A DNA stretch of 32,050 nucleotides, taken from contig JAEMQZ010000013.1 in assembly GCA_016463595.1 (NCBI GenBank), positions 1 to 32,050 on the forward strand, written 5' to 3'. Shown one piece after another: positions 418 to 19,786 of this stretch (positions are counted from its first letter, which is position 1; each line of letters begins with the position of its first letter). The stretch comes from Synechococcales cyanobacterium SupBloom_Metag_052 (lineage in GTDB: Bacteria; Cyanobacteriota; Cyanobacteriia; PCC-6307; Cyanobiaceae). Made by a program: the position numbers and the translations under genes. The notes under the pieces were generated by a model. The model worked only from the letters and a program-made list of their open reading frames with translations, had not been told where the DNA came from and searched no databases.

Positions 418-936
418 ATGTTCGACGCCTTCACCAAGGTCGTTGCTCAGGCTGATGCCCGCGGCGAATTCCTCAACGCTGGACAGATCGACGCCCTCGC
501 AGCTGTTGTTGCTGAAAGCAACAAGCGCATGGATTCGGTCAACCGCATCACCTCCAACGCCTCCAAAATCGTCACCAACGCTGCCCGCGGTCTCTTCGAC
601 CAGCAGCCTGCCTTGATCGCCCCCGGCGGCAATGCCTACACCCAACGTCGCATGGCTGCTTGCCTGCGTGACATGGAGATCATCCTCCGCTATGTCACCT
701 ATGCAACCTTCAACGGCGATGCTTCCGTGCTGGAAGATCGTTGCCTGAATGGCCTGCGCGAAACCTATCTCGCCCTCGGCGTGCCCGGCGCTTCGGTGGC
801 TGAAGGCGTTCGCAAGATGAAGGACGCTGCCCTCGCCATTGTTAACGATCGCGGCGGCATCACCCAGGGTGATTGCACCGCTCTCGTCTCCGAGATCGGC
901 ACCTACTTCGATCGCGCCGCTGCTGCTGTCGGCTGA
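418..936 (+). CDS. cpcB: Phycocyanin beta subunit
   Basis: Beta chain of phycocyanin, the inner-rod light-harvesting protein of the phycobilisome. The 172 residues match the usual family length. Both bilin-binding cysteines are present: Cys82 in the [10 protein letters not shown] segment and Cys153 in QGDCTAL. Asn72, the residue methylated in this family, lies in GGNAY. The start MFDAFTKVV is the canonical N terminus. It is followed after 67 bases by cpcA, the standard cpcBA order. Cys82 is expected to be served by a CpcS/CpeS-type lyase and Cys153 by a CpcT-type lyase; candidates for both lie downstream in this window. The bilin attached, PCB or PEB, cannot be read from the protein alone. 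Confidence 0.97.
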
Positions 937-1003
937 TATCTGAGCCTGCCTTGATGGCAGCTCAGTTTGGTTTCGCTTCCCCTTCCTTCCCCTTCTTCCT
1001 TCC

Positions 1004-1492
1004 ATGAAGACACCCCTCACCGAGGCCGTTGCAGCTGCCGATTCCCAAGGCCGCTTCCTTAGCCAAACCGAGCTGAACGCAGCCTTCGGTCGTTTCGAGC
1101 GCGCCAAAAACGCCCTCGCAGCCGCTAAGTCACTCACCGCCAATGCCGATTCCCTCGTGAACGGTGCTGCCCAGGCTGTGTATAGCAAGTTCCCCTACAC
1201 CACCCAGATGCAAGGGAGCAACTACGCTTCCGACGCCCGTGGCAAGGCCAAGTGTGCCCGTGACATCGGTTACTACCTCCGTCAAGTCACCTACTGCCTG
1301 GTGGCTGGTGGCACCGGCCCCATCGATGAATACCTCGTCGCTGGTCTCGATGAAATCAACCGCGCTTTCGAACTGTCCCCCTCCTGGTACGTCGAAGCCC
1401 TGAACTACATCAAGGCCAACCACGGCATTTCCGGCGACCCCGGTAATATCGCCAACAACTACATCGACTACGCAATCGGCGCCCTCGTCTGA
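1004..1492 (+). CDS. cpcA: Phycocyanin alpha subunit
   Basis: Alpha chain of phycocyanin, partner of CpcB in the rod hexamers. The 162 residues are the normal length and the start MKTPLTEAV is typical. The single bilin-binding cysteine is Cys84 in [11 protein letters not shown]. The C terminus [11 protein letters not shown] is also typical. It lies directly behind cpcB on the same strand and is followed by a strong hairpin terminator, so cpcBA appears to be a two-gene transcript. The lyase for Cys84 is expected to be the CpcE/CpcF pair found at 22196-23748. Whether this is C-phycocyanin or an R-phycocyanin carrying PEB on alpha cannot be settled by eye. Confidence 0.97.
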
Positions 1493-1846: not shown

Positions 1847-2605
1847 ATGGCCCTTCCGCTTCTTGCTACCCAGCTGCTGACCATGAACGCGCGGGTGAAT
1901 AGCTTTCAGCTACCCGGCGGACAGGACAGCCGTGAGTTCAAGTCCGGAACTGGTCAGCTCAGTGGCAACGGAAACTTCGAGAGCCAGATTGCTCAGGCCT
2001 ACAAACAGATCTTCTTTCACGCCTTCAAAGTCGACCGGGAGCCAGCGCTTGAGTCGCAGCTGCAGAACGGCCAGATCACGATGCGAGATTTCGTGCGGGG
2101 TCTACTACTGTCTCGAAAGTTCAGGGATGATTTCTACCGCTGCAACAGCAACTACCGCATGGTTGAGCAGGTAGTGAACCGGGTCCTGGGACGTCCTGTA
2201 CACGGCAATCAAGAGCGGCTCGCCTACTCCATCATGATCGCCCAGCATGGTCTCGGAGCATTTATTGATTCACTCCTGGATTCGGAAGAATACATGGATA
2301 CATTTGGATATAATACCGTTCCCTTTCAAAGGTCACGGATTTTACCCGGCCAAGCCCTGGGCACCATGCCCTTCAACCAGCAGGCGCCCCGCTACGACAG
2401 CATCTGGAGGGACAAAATGGCCAAGCGAGCTCCAGCCAAGGTGCTCTGGCAAGACGCCATCAGCCAACGACCGGCCTGGCTCGCCGACGCCCCCGCACCA
2501 TGGGCTCGAAAGCTCTGGCAAAACACTGTGACAGCCGGTGGTTTTGTGATCACAGGACTGGTGCTCTGGATTGCAGCTGCCATGCTGAGCACTGGAGCAC
2601 AATAA
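1847..2605 (+). CDS. cpcL: Phycobilisome rod linker, CpcL type (membrane-anchored CpcG)
   Basis: Linker of the CpcG family. The start MALPLLATQ matches the conserved MALPLL N terminus of that family. A PBS linker domain covers roughly residues 45-165, with the hallmarks NYRMVEQVVNRVLGRPV and FIDSLLDSEEYMDTFGYNTVPF. After a short polar stretch the C terminus ends in a hydrophobic helix at about residues 228-248 (GGFVITGLVLWIAAAML). A C-terminal membrane helix in place of a core-binding tail is the defining mark of CpcL (formerly CpcG2), which in other cyanobacteria carries rods without a core and passes energy mainly to photosystem I. It has its own upstream region and heads a run of unknown genes. 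A core-attaching CpcG is not seen in this window. Confidence 0.85.
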   Translation: MALPLLATQLLTMNARVNSFQLPGGQDSREFKSGTGQLSGNGNFESQIAQAYKQIFFHAFKVDREPALESQLQNGQITMRDFVRGLLLSRKFRDDFYRCNSNYRMVEQVVNRVLGRPVHGNQERLAYSIMIAQHGLGAFIDSLLDSEEYMDTFGYNTVPFQRSRILPGQALGTMPFNQQAPRYDSIWRDKMAKRAPAKVLWQDAISQRPAWLADAPAPWARKLWQNTVTAGGFVITGLVLWIAAAMLSTGAQ

Positions 2606-2646: not shown

Positions 2647-3258
2647 ATGGATTCATCGTCAATCACGGCTATGAGGGGCTCAACTGATGGCCAAAGCGAT
2701 TGCGCCTACTCCCATCCTTGGCAAAGCGAGCTGGATGAAAATCTTCTTCCCGCAACGAGAATTGCAATGAACGATCCCCTTAGCCAGCTCAATGCTCTTA
2801 TCAACTCCCATCAAGGCCAAGACGAGGTTACCCCTGACGCCAGTCAGCCCGAATTTCGGATATCCCTAAACCCTCATAATCTTGAGCTATGGCGATTAGA
2901 ACATAGGCAAATCGCTGGGAAGGGAGCAAATCTCCTATTGGCTTGTTTGAGTTCCACTGGCCCCCTTGAAGACACCTCGCTAGGCTGGGTTGTAGGAGCA
3001 GCGATTCGTCCTGCCTCTGTAAACAGTCAAGAGGATTGCAAGGTGCTCTTGCATGCTCTTGGCCTAAGCTCAGACCTGATAAATTCTGTTTTAGTAAACT
3101 GCCCAGGTATTGCCGGAAAAGTAGCCTGGGCGCTCTACTTAGAACGTCACGGCCACCTGGTTGCCACGCCCGTGCTCGATCAGGATCCAGACTCTAACGA
3201 CATCAAACTTCAAGTCACCGCACGCTCCGATGACATGAAGCAGCTTAACCGAGAATGA
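2647..3258 (+). CDS. Hypothetical protein in the cpcL gene run
   Basis: Not recognised. The predicted 203 residues start with a low-complexity polar stretch; ATG at 2767 (MNDPLSQLNALI, 163 residues) is a reasonable alternative start, and the better-looking protein begins there. The body, from about LNPHNLELWRLEHR onward, looks like a soluble mixed alpha/beta protein with no signal peptide or membrane helix. It begins 41 bases after cpcL and ends only four bases before the next gene, so it is very likely co-transcribed and translationally linked with the phycobiliprotein-like gene behind it. This context suggests a role tied to phycobilisome assembly or to that partner, which is inference only. 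Confidence 0.65.
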   Translation: MDSSSITAMRGSTDGQSDCAYSHPWQSELDENLLPATRIAMNDPLSQLNALINSHQGQDEVTPDASQPEFRISLNPHNLELWRLEHRQIAGKGANLLLACLSSTGPLEDTSLGWVVGAAIRPASVNSQEDCKVLLHALGLSSDLINSVLVNCPGIAGKVAWALYLERHGHLVATPVLDQDPDSNDIKLQVTARSDDMKQLNRE

Positions 3259-3262
3259 TCCC

Positions 3263-3862
3263 ATGGACGAAAGACTAAGAGAGCTGACAGCCAAGGCGCG
3301 CATATTCGGCTTGATGCACGATCAATCTCTACCGCCATCGATTCGTGCAATACTTCAGCAAGCAGACGGGGAGGCTCGTGCATTAAGCGATGATGAATTG
3401 GGCACCATCTGTAGTGTCTCTACTGTCAATGCTGAACACCTACAACGGCTTCAGTCGAGGACTCCGCTGATTGTTACCTCTGCCAAAAGTCAACTACTTC
3501 GCGAAGATCCAGGCCTAGTTCTGCCCGGTGGTGCGCTTTACCCTGGGGCAAGGGCGGAAGCGTGTTGGCGCGACTGTTGGCATTTTCTTAGGGTAACAAT
3601 CTATGCAGTTGCGGCGGGACGCCCAATTTTTACCCATCCTCCCGGAGTAGAAGGCCTGCGTGATTTGTATCGGGAATTAGGGGTGCCAGTCAACAGCATG
3701 GCTCAAGCGATAGGCTTTCTAAAAACTGACGCACTTTCACACTATTCTACCTATGCGAGCCCAAATGATGCATCCCTTCTAGGAGAAGCCCTGCTGCACC
3801 TTGAGCAGATGATGCAACAATTAAACCAAAGATCCAGCCCAGCCACTGAGGTTAACGTATGA
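3263..3862 (+). CDS. Orphan phycobiliprotein-like protein with conserved bilin cysteine
   Basis: A divergent member of the phycobilisome globin-like family, 199 residues. The segment LPGGALYPGARAEACWRDCWHFLRVTIYA lines up with the beta-chain [27 protein letters not shown] block. This places Cys101 on the bilin-attachment Cys82 and keeps the following Arg-Asp that normally contacts the bilin. GLRDLYRELGVPVNSMAQAI matches [20 protein letters not shown]. The second beta cysteine (Cys153 position) is lost. It has no paired alpha or beta partner next to it, so it is not an ordinary antenna subunit. It could be a chromophore carrier, an assembly or degradation factor, or a terminal emitter-like subunit. 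The stop overlaps the following small ORF as ATGA. Confidence 0.8.
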   Translation: MDERLRELTAKARIFGLMHDQSLPPSIRAILQQADGEARALSDDELGTICSVSTVNAEHLQRLQSRTPLIVTSAKSQLLREDPGLVLPGGALYPGARAEACWRDCWHFLRVTIYAVAAGRPIFTHPPGVEGLRDLYRELGVPVNSMAQAIGFLKTDALSHYSTYASPNDASLLGEALLHLEQMMQQLNQRSSPATEVNV

Positions 3863-3972
3863 ACTCATTGGCTGCGCCATTTCTAGCTCCAGCATCAGCA
3901 AGTTCGCCTAGGGCAATCAATGCAAAGCAGATGCCATTATCCAGGTACAAATCAACCCTCCAGATATCATGA
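3859..3972 (+). CDS. Small ORF, 37 residues, coupled at both ends
   Basis: An ATG at 3859 shares ATGA with the stop of the phycobiliprotein-like gene. The frame reads 37 codons to a TGA that itself shares ATGA with the start of the pentapeptide-repeat gene at 3969. The product begins MNSLAAPFLAPASASSPRAI, is rich in Ala, Ser and Pro, has several basic residues and no membrane helix. It is not recognised. Coupling overlaps at both ends of a frame that fills the whole gap between two genes would be unlikely by chance, and they favour a real translated gene in this operon. Confidence 0.5.
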   Translation: MNSLAAPFLAPASASSPRAINAKQMPLSRYKSTLQIS

Positions 3973-4664
3973 CGTCAGCTTCCCCCATTACTTCACTCGC
4001 CTTTGAGCGCCCAACACCCGAACAGCAGAAACCCCCTGTCAACAGTCATGAAGGCCCATTCGATGCCAGGGGAGCCGATTGGCGCAACCTACAACTTGGC
4101 GAGCTTGATCTCTCCAAGGCACGATTGTGCCGAGTAGATCTCAGGGGTGCTGACCTTCAAAGCTGCCAACTTGAAGGCACGGATCTACGATTGGCTCGCT
4201 ATGACAGTCACACAATTTGGCCCCACGGTTTCGATTTCCGAAGCAGTGGGGCAATCGGCCCGCAGGCGAGACTTAATGGGGCCTTTCTCAACAGTGCTGA
4301 TCTTTCCGGCATGGATCTGGAAGAAGCATCGTTAATGGGCGCCTATCTTAGTGGAGCCAATCTCTCTGGTGCTTGCCTACGGGGCGCGCGACTGGCTGGC
4401 GCAGATCTACGCCATGCCCTATTGAGAGGTGCATTATGTGAAGGAACTCGATTCCTGAACTGTCAACTTGACTACGTAGATTTCCGATATGCAGAGCTCA
4501 ACAACGCTGATATAAGCAGCGCCGACTCCATTCGCGGGGCTGATTTTTCAGGTGCCATCAACCTCGACGCCCTGCGCGCCTCCCTGCTTGGCCGTCCATT
4601 CAAGGAGCTCGACTGCTGGAACCCACTGACACGCCGAACCACGCGCGAGAGCCTGAATGGCTGA
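3969..4664 (+). CDS. Pentapeptide-repeat protein
   Basis: 231 residues with two blocks of pentapeptide repeats of the A(D/N)LXX type. The first spans roughly residues 35-75 ([17 protein letters not shown]) and the second about 110-205 ([25 protein letters not shown] and onward). They are separated by a TIWPHGFDF segment, typical of cyanobacterial pentapeptide proteins. Such repeats fold into a right-handed beta-helix; the family has no single function. There is no signal peptide, so it is probably cytoplasmic. The start ATG overlaps the preceding small ORF, and its end overlaps the long reading frame of hemH. The context links it to the phycobilisome run or to heme supply, but no precise role can be given. 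Confidence 0.85.
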
Positions 4665-4689
4665 AGCCAGTTGTGAGTACCCGATTTGT

Positions 4690-5889
4690 ATGGAACCATC
4701 TACAACCAAACGAAAGCCCCGAGTTGGCGTTCTACTGCTAAACCTTGGCGGGCCAGAACGGATCGAGGACGTCGGGCCCTTTCTGTACAATCTATTCTCA
4801 GATCCGGAAATTATTCGCCTTCCGGTATCAGCGATGCAGAAGCCATTCGCTTGGCTGATCAGCAGCTTACGCAGCGCCAAGTCGCGGCAAGCCTACCGCT
4901 CAATCGGTGGAGGTTCACCGTTGCGACGCATCACCAAGCAGCAGGCCCGGGAACTACAAACCAGCCTGCGACAAAAGGGCGTGGATGCCACCAGCTATGT
5001 AGCCATGCGCTACTGGCATCCCTTTACCGAATCGGCTATAGCCGACCTCAAGGCCGACGGAGTCGATGAAGTGGTTGTGCTGCCGCTCTACCCTCACTTC
5101 TCGATTAGCACCAGTGGCTCGAGCTTCCGGGAGCTGCAGCGCCTGCGCAATACCGATCAGGCCTTCAGCCGCCTGCCAATCCGCTGCATTCGTAGCTGGT
5201 ACGACCATCCGGGCTACATCGAAGCACTGGCCAGTTTGATCGCACACGAAATAAAAGCTTGCGAAGATCCTTCTAGTGCACATATCTTCTTCAGCGCCCA
5301 CGGTGTGCCCAAGAGCTATGTGGAGGACGCCGGGGATCCCTATCAACTGGAGATCGTGGCCTGCAGCAGGCTGATCCTTCAGCAACTGCAGCAGCAGCTC
5401 GGCCATCCCAACCCCTTCACCCTCGCTTACCAGAGCCGTGTTGGACCGGTTGAATGGCTTAAGCCCTACACCGAAGCTGCCCTGCAGGAATTGGGAGCGC
5501 AAGGAGTGAAAGATCTTGTTGTAGTGCCAATCAGCTTTGTCAGTGAACATATCGAAACCCTAGAAGAAATCGATATGGAATACCGAGAGCTCGCTATCGC
5601 CGCCGGAGTAAAAAACTTCCGTCGCGTCCCTGCGCTAGACACGGATCCAGCGTTCATTGCCGCCCTGAGCGACCTGGTGGAGCAGGCGATGGCCGAAACG
5701 GCAACAAATCTCGATCAAGCCGCCGAGCTCCCCCCCAAGCTGAATCCAACCCCCCAGGGCAAGTGGACCTGGGGCTGGAGCAACGACTCCGAGCTCTGGA
5801 ACGGCCGGCTGGCGATGCTCGGGACTGCCGCCTTCCTGATGGAGGTGATCAGTCGGCACGGGCCACTGCATGGGCTAGGGCTGCTTTGA
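4690..5889 (+). CDS. hemH: Ferrochelatase with C-terminal chlorophyll-binding-like tail
   Basis: Inserts iron into protoporphyrin IX to make heme, the precursor of all bilins used here. The family start [14 protein letters not shown] is clear. Catalytic features are present: [13 protein letters not shown], the active-site His204 in SAHGVP, and [14 protein letters not shown] with its conserved acidic residues. The last 45 or so residues ([20 protein letters not shown]) form the chlorophyll a/b-binding-like helix found on cyanobacterial and plastid ferrochelatases, which anchors the enzyme in thylakoids. The open frame reaches back to 4657, overlapping the pentapeptide gene by eight bases, but ATG 4690 gives the usual N terminus. 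It closes the cpcL run. Confidence 0.95.
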
Positions 5890-9459: not shown

Positions 9460-9708
9460 ATGGTGGGACAGTCAATGGCGTTTGACCGAAAGGCAGACAA
9501 CTTGGCGCTTCCCACCATATCCCTATCTCCTTTATCCGACATGCAATCCCAGTCTCAGTTCGCACCGGTCGTCCCATCCAGAATGAGCAAGGCCAGCTCC
9601 GCTGAGGCAAGGGACCTAATGATCAACAGCCTGGTCCACATGGTGCAGGCCGCCCGCCCGGAAACGGAGAGGCTCGCCCAACTCCCCCAATTAATGTATG
9701 AGCATTGA
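9460..9708 (+). CDS. Small hypothetical protein between cpeE and cpeS
   Basis: Not recognised. The longest frame has 82 residues and overlaps the cpeS start by 11 bases in another frame. Internal starts at 9475 and 9541 are also possible; the last gives a 55-residue protein beginning MQSQSQFAPVV. The C-terminal part (SSAEARDLMINSLVHMVQAARPETERLAQLP) looks helical and amphipathic. No signal peptide or membrane segment is seen. Its location within the linker-lyase operon, with a coupling overlap to cpeS, suggests that it is expressed with phycoerythrin genes. It could still be a chance frame in the leader of cpeS. Confidence 0.45.
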   Translation: MVGQSMAFDRKADNLALPTISLSPLSDMQSQSQFAPVVPSRMSKASSAEARDLMINSLVHMVQAARPETERLAQLPQLMYEH

Positions 9709-10231
9709 GCAGTTCGTTGCCCGTTCGGAGGGGCAATGGCGGTCGATGCGTTCAGCGCACGCTCTGGCCTTTAAACAGTTTGAGGATGTCATAAGCACTA
9801 TCAAGATCGAACGCCTAGCTAGTAATAATCAAGACGTAGTGGATTACCTGGCATTGCAGTCTATTGCTCCTGGCAGCATTTCCAGCCCTTTTCAGATGAC
9901 TTGGCAGGCAGAGTCAGATTGGGAACCCGATGATGCCACGGCAGTTTCTCAAGGCACCTGCATCCTGATTCCGCTTCCAGAAACCGAACGAACGGGACAA
10001 CTGCTGCGCAGCACAGGCTATGCAGAAGCAGAGTCTGCAGTCTCATCCTATAATTTTCTAGACGACGGCACATTTATCCTCAAGACTGTCTATAGCCAGT
10101 CAATTGCAGAGGAACGCATCTGGTTTCTTTCTGAGCACGTGCGTTGCCGATCATCGGTTCTGCGTACATCAGAGGGATCGGGCATATTGCAGACTTCCTT
10201 CAGTTCAGAAATCAGAAGAATAGAGAATTGA
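9698..10231 (+). CDS. cpeS: Bilin lyase, CpeS/CpcS family
   Basis: A lipocalin-like chromophore lyase of 177 residues that attaches bilin to the Cys82 position of phycobiliproteins; CpeS enzymes act on beta-phycoerythrin Cys82. The N terminus MSIEQFVARSEGQWRSMRSAHALAFKQ is diagnostic for the family. The later segment EERIWFLSEHVRCRSSVLRT matches the conserved IWF..x..R.R.S.. strand. It follows the CpeE-type linker and precedes CpeT four bases downstream (stop 10231, start 10235), as in cpeCDESTR operons. A second family member of a different subtype lies at 17652. CpcS specificity cannot be excluded without a phylogeny. Confidence 0.87.
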   Translation: MSIEQFVARSEGQWRSMRSAHALAFKQFEDVISTIKIERLASNNQDVVDYLALQSIAPGSISSPFQMTWQAESDWEPDDATAVSQGTCILIPLPETERTGQLLRSTGYAEAESAVSSYNFLDDGTFILKTVYSQSIAEERIWFLSEHVRCRSSVLRTSEGSGILQTSFSSEIRRIEN

Positions 10232-10234
10232 CTC

Positions 10235-10855
10235 ATGAACTCTGCATCCATATTACACTTCGCTCAAACCATTTCAGGCTGCTTCAGCAACCATCAACAG
10301 GCCCAGGCAGAACCATCCAAGTTCTCCCATATCAACATTTTTTTTCGCCCCTTTCCATGGGAGGCTTTTCATGGCCCTTGGTTTTACTCTGAGCAGAGTT
10401 ATGATTATGATCCTTGGCGGCCATACCGCCAGGGTATGCATCATTTGATCGTTGCAGATGACCATCTTCTGATGCTCAACTTTGGCCTTCGCAACGGAAT
10501 TCGCGCAGCCGGAGCAGGATCTCGGCCCGAATTACTGTCTGGCATCGTTGCAGAGGATCTGCTGCCCCGTCCAGGCTGTGCGATGGTCTTTCGCCAGAAG
10601 CAAGATGGTTCTTTCTGCGGTGAAGTAGAGCCGGGTTGCAAGTGCCTGATTCCCCGCGATGGTCAGCTGACCTATCTGGTTAGCGAAGTAGAGTTTGGTG
10701 AGGATCACTGGGTGAGCCGAGATCGCGGCTTTGACCCCAGTACCCACGCCTATCTCTGGGGAGCTGAGAATGGACCCCTACGCTTTAGTCGATCGCATCG
10801 CTATGGCGACCATCTCGATGAAGGCTGGCTCCAGAATGATCATGCAACCAGCTGA
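10235..10855 (+). CDS. cpeT: Bilin lyase, CpeT/CpcT family
   Basis: A 206-residue lyase of the T family, which attaches bilin to the C-terminal beta-chain cysteine (Cys153 in CpcB, Cys165-type in CpeB, here Cys167). The core signature is present: FFRPFPWEAFHGPWFYSEQ then YDYDPWRPYRQGMH. The C-terminal half contains VSEVEFGEDHWVSRDRGFDP. It starts four bases after cpeS and is followed five bases later by the CpeR-like gene, so the three are almost surely one transcript. Its operon place favours phycoerythrin (CpeT). With no other T-type lyase in the window, it might also serve CpcB Cys153. Confidence 0.87.
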   Translation: MNSASILHFAQTISGCFSNHQQAQAEPSKFSHINIFFRPFPWEAFHGPWFYSEQSYDYDPWRPYRQGMHHLIVADDHLLMLNFGLRNGIRAAGAGSRPELLSGIVAEDLLPRPGCAMVFRQKQDGSFCGEVEPGCKCLIPRDGQLTYLVSEVEFGEDHWVSRDRGFDPSTHAYLWGAENGPLRFSRSHRYGDHLDEGWLQNDHATS

Positions 10856-13428: not shown

Positions 13429-14421
13429 ATGTTACGAGCAGCCACGCCAGCCGGGTGGCGACTGGCTCTGCGTCAAGAATGGGCCCTGGACTGCCACAGC
13501 GCCTTGATCCACCAGACTCCGCCATTAACGCCAGTATCTGCGGCCATTTCCCTCAGTGAAGAGGAAGCTGCCCTTTTGGCTGCGGAGCTGAAGCAGCAGT
13601 TGCGCTGCGGAGATCGCCCCCCCGGGGACCAGGAGTTGATCCAGAAGATGGTGGCGGGGCTCGGCGATCCACGCGGCCTGATGCGGCTCACCTTTGCCGA
13701 GAGTCTCGGTGCCGTTGGTCCCGCAGCCGTTCCGGCTCTGTGCCAGGCCCTGCGAACCCACGCCAACGTGACCGTGCGCCGTGCCGCCGCCAAAACCCTC
13801 ACCCTGATCGGGGATCCAGTTGCCCTCCCTGATCTCCTCGCTGCCCTTCTCAATGATCCCGATCCGGTGGTGCAAGGATCTGCCGTGGGTGCCATGGCCG
13901 CCACGGGTGAGTGCGCCGTGGAGGCTCTGATCGCTGTTCTCTCCAATGCCGAAAGCACCAGCATGCACCTGGGTTTGGCCAGCTGGGGTCTGGCTTTCGT
14001 CGGCGCCAGGGCGCCAGAAGCCCTGCGCCGAGCAGCCCGTTCTGCCGACACTGAAGTGCGTACGGCCGCGATTGCGGCCCTTGGTGAGCAGATCCAGAGC
14101 CTGGACGACGAGCAGGCCCGGGTGCTGGTAATCGAGGCCCTCGCCGATCCGGCTGACCAGGTGCGCGCCGAGGCCGCCACCCTTTTGGGGAAGCTGCATG
14201 ATCCGATCTGGGCCTCACCGCTCCTGCAGCCCCTGCTGAGAGACAGTGCTGAGCAAGTGCGCAAGAATGCGGCCCTTTCGTTGATGAAGCTGCGAGCCCT
14301 CGATGCCATCACCGAGCTGGAGGTTGCCCTGGCAGCAGAAGCCAGCGACCAAGTCAAGCCTGTGCTGCAGGTCTCACTTCAGCAGCTGCGCAACCATCAA
14401 CAAGCCGTTGACGACCGTTGA
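13429..14421 (+). CDS. cpeF: Bilin lyase, CpeF/MpeV-like (HEAT repeats)
   Basis: A 330-residue HEAT-repeat protein of the E/F bilin lyase class. Repeats run from about residue 75 to 320 (LMRLTFAESLGAVGPAAVPAL, VRRAAAKTLTLIGDPVALPDL, VRAEAATLLGKLHDP, VRKNAALSLMKLRALDAI). CpeF, called MpeV-like in marine strains, attaches the doubly linked PEB to beta-phycoerythrin Cys50/Cys61; both cysteines are present in the CpeB of this window. The length is close to that family and the place between cpeY and cpeZ fits. The open frame runs back to 13165, but that part overlaps the antisense gene; ATG 13429 is used although its GGAG is only three bases away. Specificity is uncertain. Confidence 0.65.
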   Translation: MLRAATPAGWRLALRQEWALDCHSALIHQTPPLTPVSAAISLSEEEAALLAAELKQQLRCGDRPPGDQELIQKMVAGLGDPRGLMRLTFAESLGAVGPAAVPALCQALRTHANVTVRRAAAKTLTLIGDPVALPDLLAALLNDPDPVVQGSAVGAMAATGECAVEALIAVLSNAESTSMHLGLASWGLAFVGARAPEALRRAARSADTEVRTAAIAALGEQIQSLDDEQARVLVIEALADPADQVRAEAATLLGKLHDPIWASPLLQPLLRDSAEQVRKNAALSLMKLRALDAITELEVALAAEASDQVKPVLQVSLQQLRNHQQAVDDR

Positions 14422-14460
14422 CGACTGGCTGAACGCCCGTGTGATCGTTGAATGTGAGAT

Positions 14461-15084
14461 CTACGCTTGCCGCATCCGTAGATCCGCCACCCTGGCCAAC
14501 GACGAAATCACCGTTTCGAGCACGTAGGGGTCGGTCGTTTCAGCGGTGGACAACTCAAGGAAGCATGCGGTCACATCCGGGTGATCGCTGCCAGCCAGGG
14601 CCGTTACCGCTGCCACGGCCTGGGCCTCGTTCTTGCCTCGGCACACCTGGAGCAACAGCGGCAAGGCCTGCCTGCCAACCTGGCCGAGGGCCATCACAGC
14701 GGAGATCGCCACCACGGGGGAGTCGTCATGCAACGCGGCCTCAAGGGCTGCCATGGCTTCAGGCGGAACGTCGATGCCGGGCCGATTGGAAGCAATCTGG
14801 GCGTAGGCCTTCACGCAACTGGCGCGAACGGTGGCGTCGGAGCTGGCGTGGAACTTAGCGGCAAGGGGCAGCATCGCCCGATCGGCGAAAACACCCAAAG
14901 CGCGCACCGCTGCCCGTCGCCTCACCACATCCTGATGATCGAGCATCAACAGCAAGCGAGGCAAGGATGCATCGGCATGGTGCCGAACCATCTCCAGAAA
15001 CGCCTCGGTCTGCACGTAGGGATTGGGATGCCCAAGATCGTCGAACAGCTGATCGAGGGAGCCAGTGCTGGTGCCAGGAGCCAT
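14461..15084 (-). CDS. cpeZ: Phycoerythrin lyase partner, CpeZ type (HEAT repeats)
   Basis: A 207-residue HEAT-repeat protein, near the usual CpeZ length of just over 200. The repeats include LFDDLGHPNPYVQTEAFLEMV, VRRRAAVRALGVFADRAML, VRASCVKAYAQIASN and VAISAVMALGQVGRQALPLL. CpeZ has a chaperone-like role for phycoerythrin subunits and works with CpeY at alpha Cys82. The reading frame is open upstream to 15168, but that would place the start before a strong terminator hairpin, so ATG 15084 is preferred. It lies behind cpeBA on the same strand and could be expressed by partial read-through. Its 3' end is 39 bases from that of the CpeF-like gene. Confidence 0.78.
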   Translation of the reverse strand: MAPGTSTGSLDQLFDDLGHPNPYVQTEAFLEMVRHHADASLPRLLLMLDHQDVVRRRAAVRALGVFADRAMLPLAAKFHASSDATVRASCVKAYAQIASNRPGIDVPPEAMAALEAALHDDSPVVAISAVMALGQVGRQALPLLLQVCRGKNEAQAVAAVTALAGSDHPDVTACFLELSTAETTDPYVLETVISSLARVADLRMRQA

Positions 15085-15132
15085 CGGGAGGTCGCCGCTG
15101 CGAGGGGAAGGGGCCCAGACGGGGCCGTCAAC

Positions 15133-15160
15133 AAAAAAAAGGGGAGGCCTAAGCCTCCCC
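15133..15160 (-). terminator. Rho-independent terminator between cpeA and cpeZ
   Basis: Read on the minus strand, GGGGAGGC pairs perfectly with GCCTCCCC around a four-base loop and is followed by eight T residues. It lies 20 bases past the cpeA stop and 48 bases before the chosen cpeZ start. It would stop most cpeBA transcripts and allow limited read-through into cpeZ. Confidence 0.92.
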
Positions 15161-15179
15161 CCAAACAATCAAACGGACC

Positions 15180-15713
<534 letters not shown>

Positions 15714-15730
15714 CTATTGCTTGAAGCCGA

Positions 15731-16598
<868 letters not shown>

Positions 16599-16932: not shown

Positions 16933-17646
16933 ATGGCTGTCAACCTTGCTCTCCAGCTGCGAGAGGGGACGAAGAAGGCCCACACCATGGCCGAGAACAC
17001 GGGCTTTGTGAGCTGCTTCCTTAAGGGGGTGGTTGACAAGGCCAGCTACCGCACCCTGGTGGGGGATCTCTGGTTTGTGTATAGCGCCATGGAAGAGGAG
17101 ATCGGCAAGCTCGCCGATCACCCCGTGGTGGGGCCAATCAGTTTTCCGCAGCTCAATCGGCGCTTGACACTGGAGCAGGACCTGGCCTTCTACTTCGGTT
17201 CGGACTGGCGCAGCCAGGTGAAAGCCACCCCAGGCGCCCAGGAATACGTGGCCCGCATCCATCAGGTGGCCCAGACGGCCCCCGAGTTGCTGGTGGGGCA
17301 CCACTACACCCGCTACATCGGCGACCTTTCCGGCGGCCAGATCCTCAAGGCCATCGCCCAGAAGGCCATGAACCTGGGAGAGCACGATGGCTTGCGCTTC
17401 TACGAGTTTGATGCCATCGACGACGAAAAGGCCTTCAAGTCTGGCTACCGCGCCATCCTCGACGGCCTGCCGATTGATCAGACCGTGGCGGACCGCATCG
17501 TGGCGGAGGCCAACCAAGCGTTCCACTGCAACATGAAGATGTTCCAGGAACTGGAGGGAAATCTGGTCGCCGCCATCGGCAAGGTTCTGTTCGGCTTCCT
17601 CACCAGGCGGCTCCGGACCGGCAGCACCGAGGCCGTGGTCGCCTGA
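16933..17646 (+). CDS. ho1: Heme oxygenase
   Basis: Opens heme to biliverdin IX-alpha with ferredoxin as electron donor, the first committed step to bilins. The 237 residues match cyanobacterial HO1. The proximal heme ligand is His17 in REGTKKAHTMAEN, and the distal helix shows HYTRYIGDLSGGQILK. The FYFGSDW and FHCNMKMFQELEG segments also fit. It begins a tight same-strand group: the CpeU-type lyase starts five bases after its stop, then pebA and pebB. That order couples biliverdin formation directly to phycoerythrobilin synthesis. Confidence 0.96.
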   Translation: MAVNLALQLREGTKKAHTMAENTGFVSCFLKGVVDKASYRTLVGDLWFVYSAMEEEIGKLADHPVVGPISFPQLNRRLTLEQDLAFYFGSDWRSQVKATPGAQEYVARIHQVAQTAPELLVGHHYTRYIGDLSGGQILKAIAQKAMNLGEHDGLRFYEFDAIDDEKAFKSGYRAILDGLPIDQTVADRIVAEANQAFHCNMKMFQELEGNLVAAIGKVLFGFLTRRLRTGSTEAVVA

Positions 17647-17651
17647 AGGTG

Positions 17652-18266
17652 ATGGCACAGCTTCCACCGTTGACCATGGCGGCGTTCTTGGCCGCCAGTG
17701 CCGGCACTTGGCTAACCCGCCGCGCCGTGCACCATCTTGATCACCAGGACGACGAAGCCGGCGACTCCAATCTCACCATCGAGCCTTTTGATCGCTCGGA
17801 TGGAGCCGTGCAGAGTATCTGCGAAAGCCTTGGAGTTGCCTCCAGCCAGGTGAGCGGCGGTGCGCGCTTCTGGTGGGAGAGCAACCTCAAGGAGAACAGC
17901 CGCGGTGACGAGAATGCCGCCGTTCTGCTCGATGTTGCGGACCTTGCGAACCCACGCCGTGGCTTTCTACTGCGGGATAAGGGCTACATCGAGAAACAAC
18001 CGGTGATCAGCAACTACTGCTTTGCCGAGGACGGCCTGCTCACCATCACCACTCGCTACGACACGAATGTGGGGGTTGAACGCTGCTGGTTCGTTAGCGA
18101 GGGCGTACGCATTCGGGTCAGCAGTATCCAATTCCTTGATGGCATCAGCATGACGACCTACTGCACCGAGCTGCGCTGTCCCAATGGGGCCGAACTGGAA
18201 GCCATCGGCGCAACGGCTCGACAGCGTTTCCCACTCGCGTCGCAGCCGCTTGCTGCGGATAGCTAA
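17652..18266 (+). CDS. cpeU: CpeS/CpcU-family bilin lyase (CpeU type)
   Basis: A 204-residue lipocalin-like protein of the S/U bilin lyase family. Features are the helix MAAFLAASAGTWLTRRAVHHL at the start, the SQVSGGARFWWESNL segment, then YCFAEDGLLTITTRYD and VERCWFVSEGVRIRVSS, which corresponds to the conserved IWF...R.R.S strand of CpeS. It differs clearly from CpeS at 9698 and sits between ho1 and pebA, where U-type members are found in some picocyanobacteria. Its target is uncertain: it may attach PEB, deliver it, or act as a partner of CpeS. ATG 17652 is chosen over a GTG three bases earlier because GAAGG precedes it. Confidence 0.72.
   Translation: MAQLPPLTMAAFLAASAGTWLTRRAVHHLDHQDDEAGDSNLTIEPFDRSDGAVQSICESLGVASSQVSGGARFWWESNLKENSRGDENAAVLLDVADLANPRRGFLLRDKGYIEKQPVISNYCFAEDGLLTITTRYDTNVGVERCWFVSEGVRIRVSSIQFLDGISMTTYCTELRCPNGAELEAIGATARQRFPLASQPLAADS

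Positions 18267-19786
<1,520 letters not shown>

Follow-up and report, generated by a model that had tools for sequence, protein, structure and literature searches.

The locus examined here raises the question of what a phycobiliprotein-like chain does when it keeps a bilin-type cysteine and stands without an alpha or beta partner at its side. The window (the whole stretch of DNA that was analysed, 32,050 nucleotides of contig JAEMQZ010000013.1) comes from Synechococcales cyanobacterium SupBloom_Metag_052, a freshwater Synechococcus/Cyanobium-type picocyanobacterium. Our preferred reading, given a probability of roughly 0.75, is that positions 3263-3862 hold aplA of a phycobilisome gene cluster for phycocyanin plus phycoerythrin I (Type IIB kind), and that the product is a soluble, non-phycobilisome relative carrying a covalent bilin at Cys101 and belonging functionally to the phycoerythrin module. 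AplA and other Apl (allophycocyanin-like) proteins were reportedly described in Fremyella diplosiphon by Montgomery et al. in 2004, in a study said to have found an N-terminal extension of about 28 residues and a covalently bound chromophore. Passages of Six et al. (2007; PMC2246261) treat the Apl proteins as a photosensor class, of unknown function and without a link to the phycobilisome.

Gene order around aplA

On the forward strand aplA is preceded by cpcB, cpcA, a cpcGII-type linker gene and a 203-aa ORF (unk4), and followed by a pentapeptide-repeat gene (unk5), hemH, three linker genes, cpeS and cpeT; further on in the window lie cpeAB on the reverse strand, a heme oxygenase gene, a cpeS-type lyase gene and two bilin reductase genes. 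The features were assigned as follows:

418..1492, forward strand: cpcB and cpcA (phycocyanin; TIGR01339 321.5 bits and TIGR01338 287.1 bits, both above cut-off)
1847..2605, forward strand: cpcGII-type rod-core linker with a hydrophobic C-terminal segment (PF00427 1.6e-38; NCBIfam CpcG2 159 bits against a cut-off of 420)
2647..3258, forward strand: unk4, picocyanobacterial; the conserved start is probably 2767, and the frame stops 4 bases short of aplA
3263..3862, forward strand: aplA, allophycocyanin-like non-antenna phycobiliprotein, 199 aa (from PF00502, alignment, tree and neighbours)
3563..3574, forward strand: codons for Cys101-Trp102-Arg103-Asp104, the predicted covalent bilin site
3969..4664, forward strand: unk5, pentapeptide-repeat protein (PF00805 1.6e-26; fits unk5 of Six et al. 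2007)
4657..5889, forward strand: hemH, ferrochelatase (PF00762 1.6e-117)
9698..10855, forward strand: cpeS- and cpeT-type lyase genes, downstream of aplA (PF09367 7.8e-56, PF06206 6.6e-59)
15180..16291, reverse strand: cpeA and cpeB (phycoerythrin; NF058506 291.8 bits and NF058508 328.8 bits, above cut-off)
16933..19786, forward strand: heme oxygenase, second cpeS-type lyase and two bilin reductases (PF01126 1.7e-82; PF09367 6.4e-56; PF05996 1.8e-76 and 4.7e-68)

Judged by their order, the two bilin reductase genes would be pebA and pebB and provide the PEB supply. The first-pass annotation had described aplA as an orphan with no alpha or beta partner alongside. For the genes directly next to it this is correct; cpcBA, however, is found 1.8-2.8 kb upstream on the same strand and cpeBA in the same window, and 'orphan' is too strong a term for a recognised gene of such clusters. 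In marine Synechococcus that contain phycoerythrin, aplA has unk4 upstream of it, according to passages of Six et al. (2007; PMC2246261); these also state that all PEII strains have aplA upstream of cpcGII, that strain WH7805 has unk4 without aplA, and that unk5 contains pentapeptide repeats. The relevant passage of Sanchez-Baracaldo et al. (2019; PMC6363710) places cpcBA upstream of aplA in Type IIB clusters and states its absence in Type II, and AplA is listed in figure legends for such clusters (PMC5478717, PMC6776005). The window cluster fits the Type IIB kind, and the gene is aplA. As aplA in such clusters has already been published, the gene finding itself is already known; that the gene had already been named, and that it is tied to phycoerythrin genes, was missed in the first-pass annotation.

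Two differences from published orders were seen. In the marine order cpcGII follows aplA, whereas in the window it precedes unk4; and hemH, which adjoins pebAB in Type II/IIB clusters according to a passage of Larsson et al. (2014; PMC4139726), stands in the window after unk5 and before the phycoerythrin linker genes. The order cpcBA-cpcGII-unk4-aplA-unk5-hemH recurs in 11 of the 13 named relatives, and in one of these unk4 and aplA form a single frame; of the other two, L024 shows the marine order and L022 lacks cpcGII at that place as well as hemH. The single frame, of 405 aa, belongs to a freshwater MAG with 98% AplA identity to the window (L012:7383-8600), and its differing unk4/aplA junction, one base shorter, represents either a natural fusion or an assembly error.

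Elsewhere in the cluster, the cpcGII-type product ends in the hydrophobic stretch TVTAGGFVITGLVLWIAAAML, which is membrane-anchor-like, as is the hydrophobic end of CpcL-type linkers, and scores well under the CpcG1-4 cut-offs. Two more HEAT-repeat genes lie beside cpeAB (13501-15168), with NblB as best match, below cut-off, and by position they have a cpeF/mpeV- and cpeZ-type look.

In 32 of 32 related picocyanobacterial loci, aplA is preceded by unk4. Its profile (A3) matched 23 of 386 genomes, all from the window's family and including all 20 with aplA in that family. One genome (G274) has Unk4 without AplA; what Unk4 follows in picocyanobacteria is thus phycoerythrin and not AplA itself. 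AlphaFold2 gave no usable fold for Unk4 (pLDDT 41.5). Pieces of unk4 are also present in two small-genome, CpeB-positive relatives without AplA (G141:C9:26904-27303 and G276:C1:805055-805213), in one case as two pieces in separate frames and in the other as a short remnant.

Sequence, bilin site and phylogeny of AplA

The aplA frame is intact from ATG to TGA, and its product matches PF00502 (phycobilisome) at residues 30-166 with an E-value of 2.9e-31 and a score of 109 bits against a cut-off of 22.2, which excludes a chance match and bears out the phycobiliprotein likeness first noted; this is the single domain across the 199 aa. Every match to an NCBIfam antenna model fell far under the equivalog cut-off, the best being ApcA (66.8/270 bits), with PC beta at 58.7 bits. 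When solved structures were searched with the single sequence, phycoerythrin and phycocyanin beta chains ranked first (8.6e-17 downwards) and allophycocyanin alpha chains slightly below. PF00502 has 11 matches in the source genome, namely cpcBA, cpeBA, aplA and six others taken for the allophycocyanin set. Freshwater Synechococcus and Cyanobium MAGs and strains make up most of the nearest named relatives.

For alignment, 66 AplA rows were assembled from the window, 13 relatives (genome_contigs) and 52 further genomes, the window's own copies (L009 and L025) being excluded. The search that yielded the 52 rows used the whole profile and did not require the cysteine motif; the 13 came from a pattern search in which one of six patterns included the cysteine. 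The profile (A1), built from the window product and the 13 relatives (14 sequences), was run over 386 cyanobacterial genomes and matched 53 of them over its full length, N-terminal part included, at E <= 2.7e-31, a cut that was chosen after the gap to the next best match (4.3e-25, without the N-terminal part) was visible. Three genomes (G005, G177, G332) matched in the antenna-like part only (E >= 4.3e-25) and were dropped as antenna; four rows from them (L078-L081) group with antenna rows in the tree.

Arg97, Cys101, Trp102, Arg103, Asp104, Phe108, Arg110 and Tyr114 are identical in all 66 rows. The first-pass claim of a C-W-R-D motif at Cys101, aligned to the bilin site Cys82 of CpcB, is confirmed: Arg103-Asp104 match the Arg-Asp of 12 of 12 antenna rows, which also keep the cysteine, and a search for homologues that had lost the bilin cysteine found 0 of 66. 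Loss of the second beta cysteine, likewise claimed, follows from the column of CpcB Cys153, which holds 33 gaps, 33 other letters and no Cys. Trp102 and Leu92 are present in 66/66 AplA and 0/12 antenna rows (Leu, Ala, Tyr or Ile replacing the tryptophan) and Pro94 in 66/66 and 1/12, while Arg110 and Tyr114 are found in all 12 antenna rows as well. Between 27 and 37 residues precede window residue 30 in the AplA rows (start points set by script; 55 of 66 start with Met), against 6-7 in the nine of 12 antenna rows whose start could be read cleanly, the other three being over-long ORFs unusable for this comparison; in the window product itself 29 residues precede Leu30, against 7 in CpcB, or about 22 more. 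In a maximum-likelihood tree of 78 rows, for which the program warned of long branches, a 100/100 branch separates the 66 AplA rows from the 12 antenna rows, and the AplA rows are split into 33 picocyanobacterial rows (97/83) and 33 others (99/97). With the cysteine kept throughout and the clade separate, the sequence comparison supports the earlier suggestion that the chain may bind bilin as a free protein instead of serving as a subunit of the antenna.

Other candidate explanations were rejected. A decayed antenna pseudogene does not agree with an intact frame, an identity of 42-98% to the 13 relatives and invariant bilin residues. A dual-cysteine photosensor was considered on account of Cys105 (3575-3577), at +4 after the bilin cysteine, but this residue is Cys in 33/33 picocyanobacterial AplA and in 1/33 others (31 Phe, 1 Leu), and is therefore not a feature of the AplA family. 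Position 111 is Cys in 31 of the 66 rows, only one of which also has Cys105, giving a near-exclusive swap in the place of an additional cysteine. A phage-borne aplA was discarded, as none of 34 pattern matches in viral_contigs was confirmed and no relative was found among phages.

Structure model

The AlphaFold2 model of the product, made with A1, had a pLDDT of 90.3 and a pTM of 0.86. Its best Foldseek matches were phycobiliproteins, in a list where the absence of other folds is uninformative. VIA-align placed the model on a phycocyanin beta chain with Z 14.9 (3.6 Å over 147 residues), and the core (residues 54-185) fitted another phycocyanin beta chain at 2.1 Å over 130 residues (Z 14.6), which suggests that the bilin-bearing globin core of the model is standard. 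The first-pass annotation had looked to structure prediction for a bilin pocket; the prediction recovered the phycobiliprotein globin core, a result at the level of the fold. Foldseek and several phycocyanin rows (full chain 3.5-4.0 Å, core 2.1 Å) had pointed to a displaced N-terminal assembly hairpin, which was set aside since residues 25-185 fit cryptophyte antenna beta chains at 2.4-3.0 Å over 143-147 residues.

Because of this last fit, the fold does not exclude an antenna role. AplA as an ordinary or special antenna subunit, taking the place of an alpha or a beta chain in certain rods, would also agree with the kept fold and bilin cysteine and with the position of aplA in a rod gene cluster. 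However, unk4 and unk5 are its neighbours in place of a cognate partner, the clade with its N-terminal extension stands apart from antenna chains, antenna models score far under cut-off, and AplA is reported to have no phycobilisome link in the cited passages of Six et al. (PMC2246261). On the missing partner, the separate clade and the low antenna-model scores, we set this reading aside as very improbable.

Co-occurrence of AplA with phycoerythrin

CpeB, called by NF058508 above cut-off in the same 386 genomes, was present in 61. Both AplA and CpeB were found in 48 genomes, AplA only in 5, CpeB only in 13 and neither in 320, that is, CpeB occurred in 48 of 53 AplA genomes versus 13 of 333 others. 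Counted by hand at the level of genera, the numbers were 22, 2, 8 and 111, respectively, with a Fisher p of 3e-17 that is not a clean probability, since genera share ancestry, which inflates co-occurrence. Across cyanobacteria AplA tends to travel with phycoerythrin genes.

Of the 13 CpeB-only genomes, ten were taken to be Prochlorococcus: they are picocyanobacteria of small genome size (1.7-2.6 Mb), and the CpeB search gave two to five first-look candidates in each; the other three (G274, G091, G300) have a full set of other phycobiliproteins without AplA. In the five AplA-only genomes, which belong to two genera, neither CpeB nor CpeA scored above cut-off. Each contains one bilin reductase, against three in G143, G151, G274, G091 and G300, and presumably lacks PEB for that reason. 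AplA thus persists without phycoerythrin, and presumably without PEB, which counts against a strictly PEB-dedicated protein.

Neighbourhood of aplA in other lineages

Outside the window's family, the surroundings of 33 aplA genes were surveyed, some of them shortened by contig ends. Genes counted as phycoerythrin-specific were cpeA, cpeB, pebA, pebB, cpeS, cpeR-like and cpeY, with score thresholds set by the analyst. At least one of these lay within about 9 kb of aplA in 21 of 33 cases; among the phycoerythrin-bearing genomes outside the family, 21 of 28 aplA genes had a phycoerythrin gene within 9 kb and 7 did not. In 12/33 loci outside the family and in 7/7 picocyanobacterial loci examined (of 20), linker or cpeS genes lay downstream of aplA and ran in the same direction. 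For pebA or pebB within 2.5 kb, the corresponding numbers were 10/33 and 0/7. Three genomes (G143, G123, G211) have a codirectional pebA-pebB-aplA series with small gaps of 53, -54 and 16 bases between open frames, and the same order is annotated in PCC 8801.

The proximity to pebA/pebB and the three codirectional series speak for AplA as a strict carrier of PEB from PebB to the phycoerythrin lyases. The carrier role is nevertheless unlikely, as the five AplA genomes with a single bilin reductase, hence presumably PcyA, would make no PEB, and as covalent attachment is, we infer, a poor design for a carrier.

A gene for an NblB/lyase-like HEAT-repeat protein of about 220 aa lies within 2 kb of aplA in 19 of the 33 loci. 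NblB is the best NCBIfam match of these neighbours, three members scoring 70-103 bits and a more distant one, in G340, 143.9 bits against a cut-off of 300; no HEAT neighbour of aplA passes a curated lyase or NblB model. The one member scanned with Pfam contains HEAT_2 and HEAT_PBS (PBS-lyase HEAT) repeats. Profile A2 of this family matched 38 of 386 genomes, comprising 27 of the 33 AplA genomes outside the family and 11 without AplA, and none from the window's family in that sample; in picocyanobacteria, it is Unk4 that holds the place next to aplA.

Plasmid-borne modules

In a search of 72,556 plasmid records (PLSDB), AplA matched six, three of which match from residue 1 on: Rippkaea orientalis PCC 8801 pP880102, Gloeothece citriformis PCC 7424 pP742401 and Pseudanabaena sp. 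PCC 7367 pPSE7367.01. In the remaining three the N-terminal part is missing, and the annotation reads allophycocyanin or is absent. The window CpeB matched five records at E <= 1e-20, three at 64-78% identity and two at 42-52%, and the three plasmids with CpeB of phycoerythrin grade (64-78%) are the same three that carry aplA. By annotation, cpeBA, pebAB, lyases and linkers surround aplA on pP880102 and pP742401, and cpeB lies about 7 kb from aplA on pPSE7367.01. The CpeB match of PCC 7424 falls in a cpeBA pair annotated as bleomycin hydrolase, and the PCC 8801 module is interspersed with transposase genes. The HEAT family is present on two of the three plasmids: in PCC 7424 it adjoins aplA, and in PCC 7367 it lies about 14 kb off, with a different HEAT gene next to aplA. 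Large parts of the phycoerythrin gene module are thus carried on plasmids (L122, NC_011723.1; L123, NC_011738.1; L124, NC_019690.1), of which one is mobilizable and one conjugative according to PLSDB typing.

Proposed role of AplA

AplA is likely a soluble covalent biliprotein of phycoerythrin biogenesis or its control. As a phycobiliprotein relative that would bind bilin at Cys101 outside the phycobilisome, it may serve as a bilin-loaded stand-in subunit: kept apart from the antenna, it would take up, retain or hand on bilin or subunits during phycoerythrin biogenesis, and in many other lineages it would do so with a HEAT-repeat partner of the NblB/E-F-lyase kind. The content of the module favours a role in biogenesis, which we infer at slightly less than even odds. 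Weighing against the preferred reading are the five AplA genomes without phycoerythrin, the three phycoerythrin genomes (G274, G091, G300) without AplA, the seven of 28 loci with no phycoerythrin gene within 9 kb, the count of 0/7 for pebA or pebB near picocyanobacterial aplA, and a HEAT family that is absent from the window's family in the sample and present in 11 genomes lacking AplA. A more specific form of the biogenesis role is rather tentative: AplA would be a bilin-loaded decoy that, together with an NblB-like HEAT protein encoded beside it in many lineages (and with Unk4 in picocyanobacteria), monitors or promotes the chromophorylation and assembly of phycoerythrin, and that is taken along when plasmids move the module.

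Alternatively, AplA could be a light or bilin sensor, its Cys101 bilin reporting colour or supply and partner signalling adjusting phycoerythrin expression. The passages of Six et al. (PMC2246261) that assign the Apl proteins to a photosensor class point in this direction. So does the retention of AplA in the five genomes without phycoerythrin, which favours light or bilin sensing, and an invariant, AplA-specific Trp102 beside the bilin cysteine is consistent with it. On the other hand, the 199 aa with one PF00502 domain offer no output domain, and Arg103 and Asp104, the equivalents of which hold the bilin rigid in antenna chains, are kept. Moreover, aplA often lies among genes for lyases, linkers and PEB synthesis. 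We regard a sensor as possible, though somewhat doubtful.

If AplA belongs to the phycoerythrin module, loss of aplA should be felt in phycoerythrin more than in phycocyanin or allophycocyanin. Since 2004 AplA has been a chromoprotein with no assigned job, and the phylum-wide link to phycoerythrin, the recurrent HEAT neighbour and the plasmid modules turn a 'photoreceptor of unknown function' into this concrete prediction. Plasmid-borne phycoerythrin modules are a possible route for the transfer of pigment type, and transfer of phycoerythrin to a new host could work better with a non-antenna biliprotein. A limited search of the literature found no statement of a phylum-wide AplA-phycoerythrin link, of the HEAT neighbour or of the plasmid modules, and prior publication is possible.

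Comparison with known systems

The HEAT neighbour of aplA outside picocyanobacteria has HEAT_2/HEAT_PBS repeats in common with NblB and the E/F-type lyases (HEAT_PBS proteins), but differs from NblB in scoring below its cut-off, as given above. With antenna chains (phycocyanin and phycoerythrin beta, allophycocyanin alpha), AplA shares the globin fold, the C-x-R-D motif, Arg110 and Tyr114; it is unlike them in Trp102, Leu92, Pro94, the N-terminal extension, the lack of a second beta cysteine and of a partner chain, and its separate clade. Within AplA, position +4 is Cys in the picocyanobacterial proteins and Phe in 31 of 33 others. In domain match, N-terminal extension, bilin residues and gene context, no feature was found that would exclude the window protein from the Apl proteins. 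As in marine Synechococcus, unk4 lies directly upstream of aplA and unk5 nearby, and with AplA/Apl of Fremyella diplosiphon the window protein has in common that it is a phycobiliprotein relative with an N-terminal extension and the bilin residues, encoded by a lone gene.
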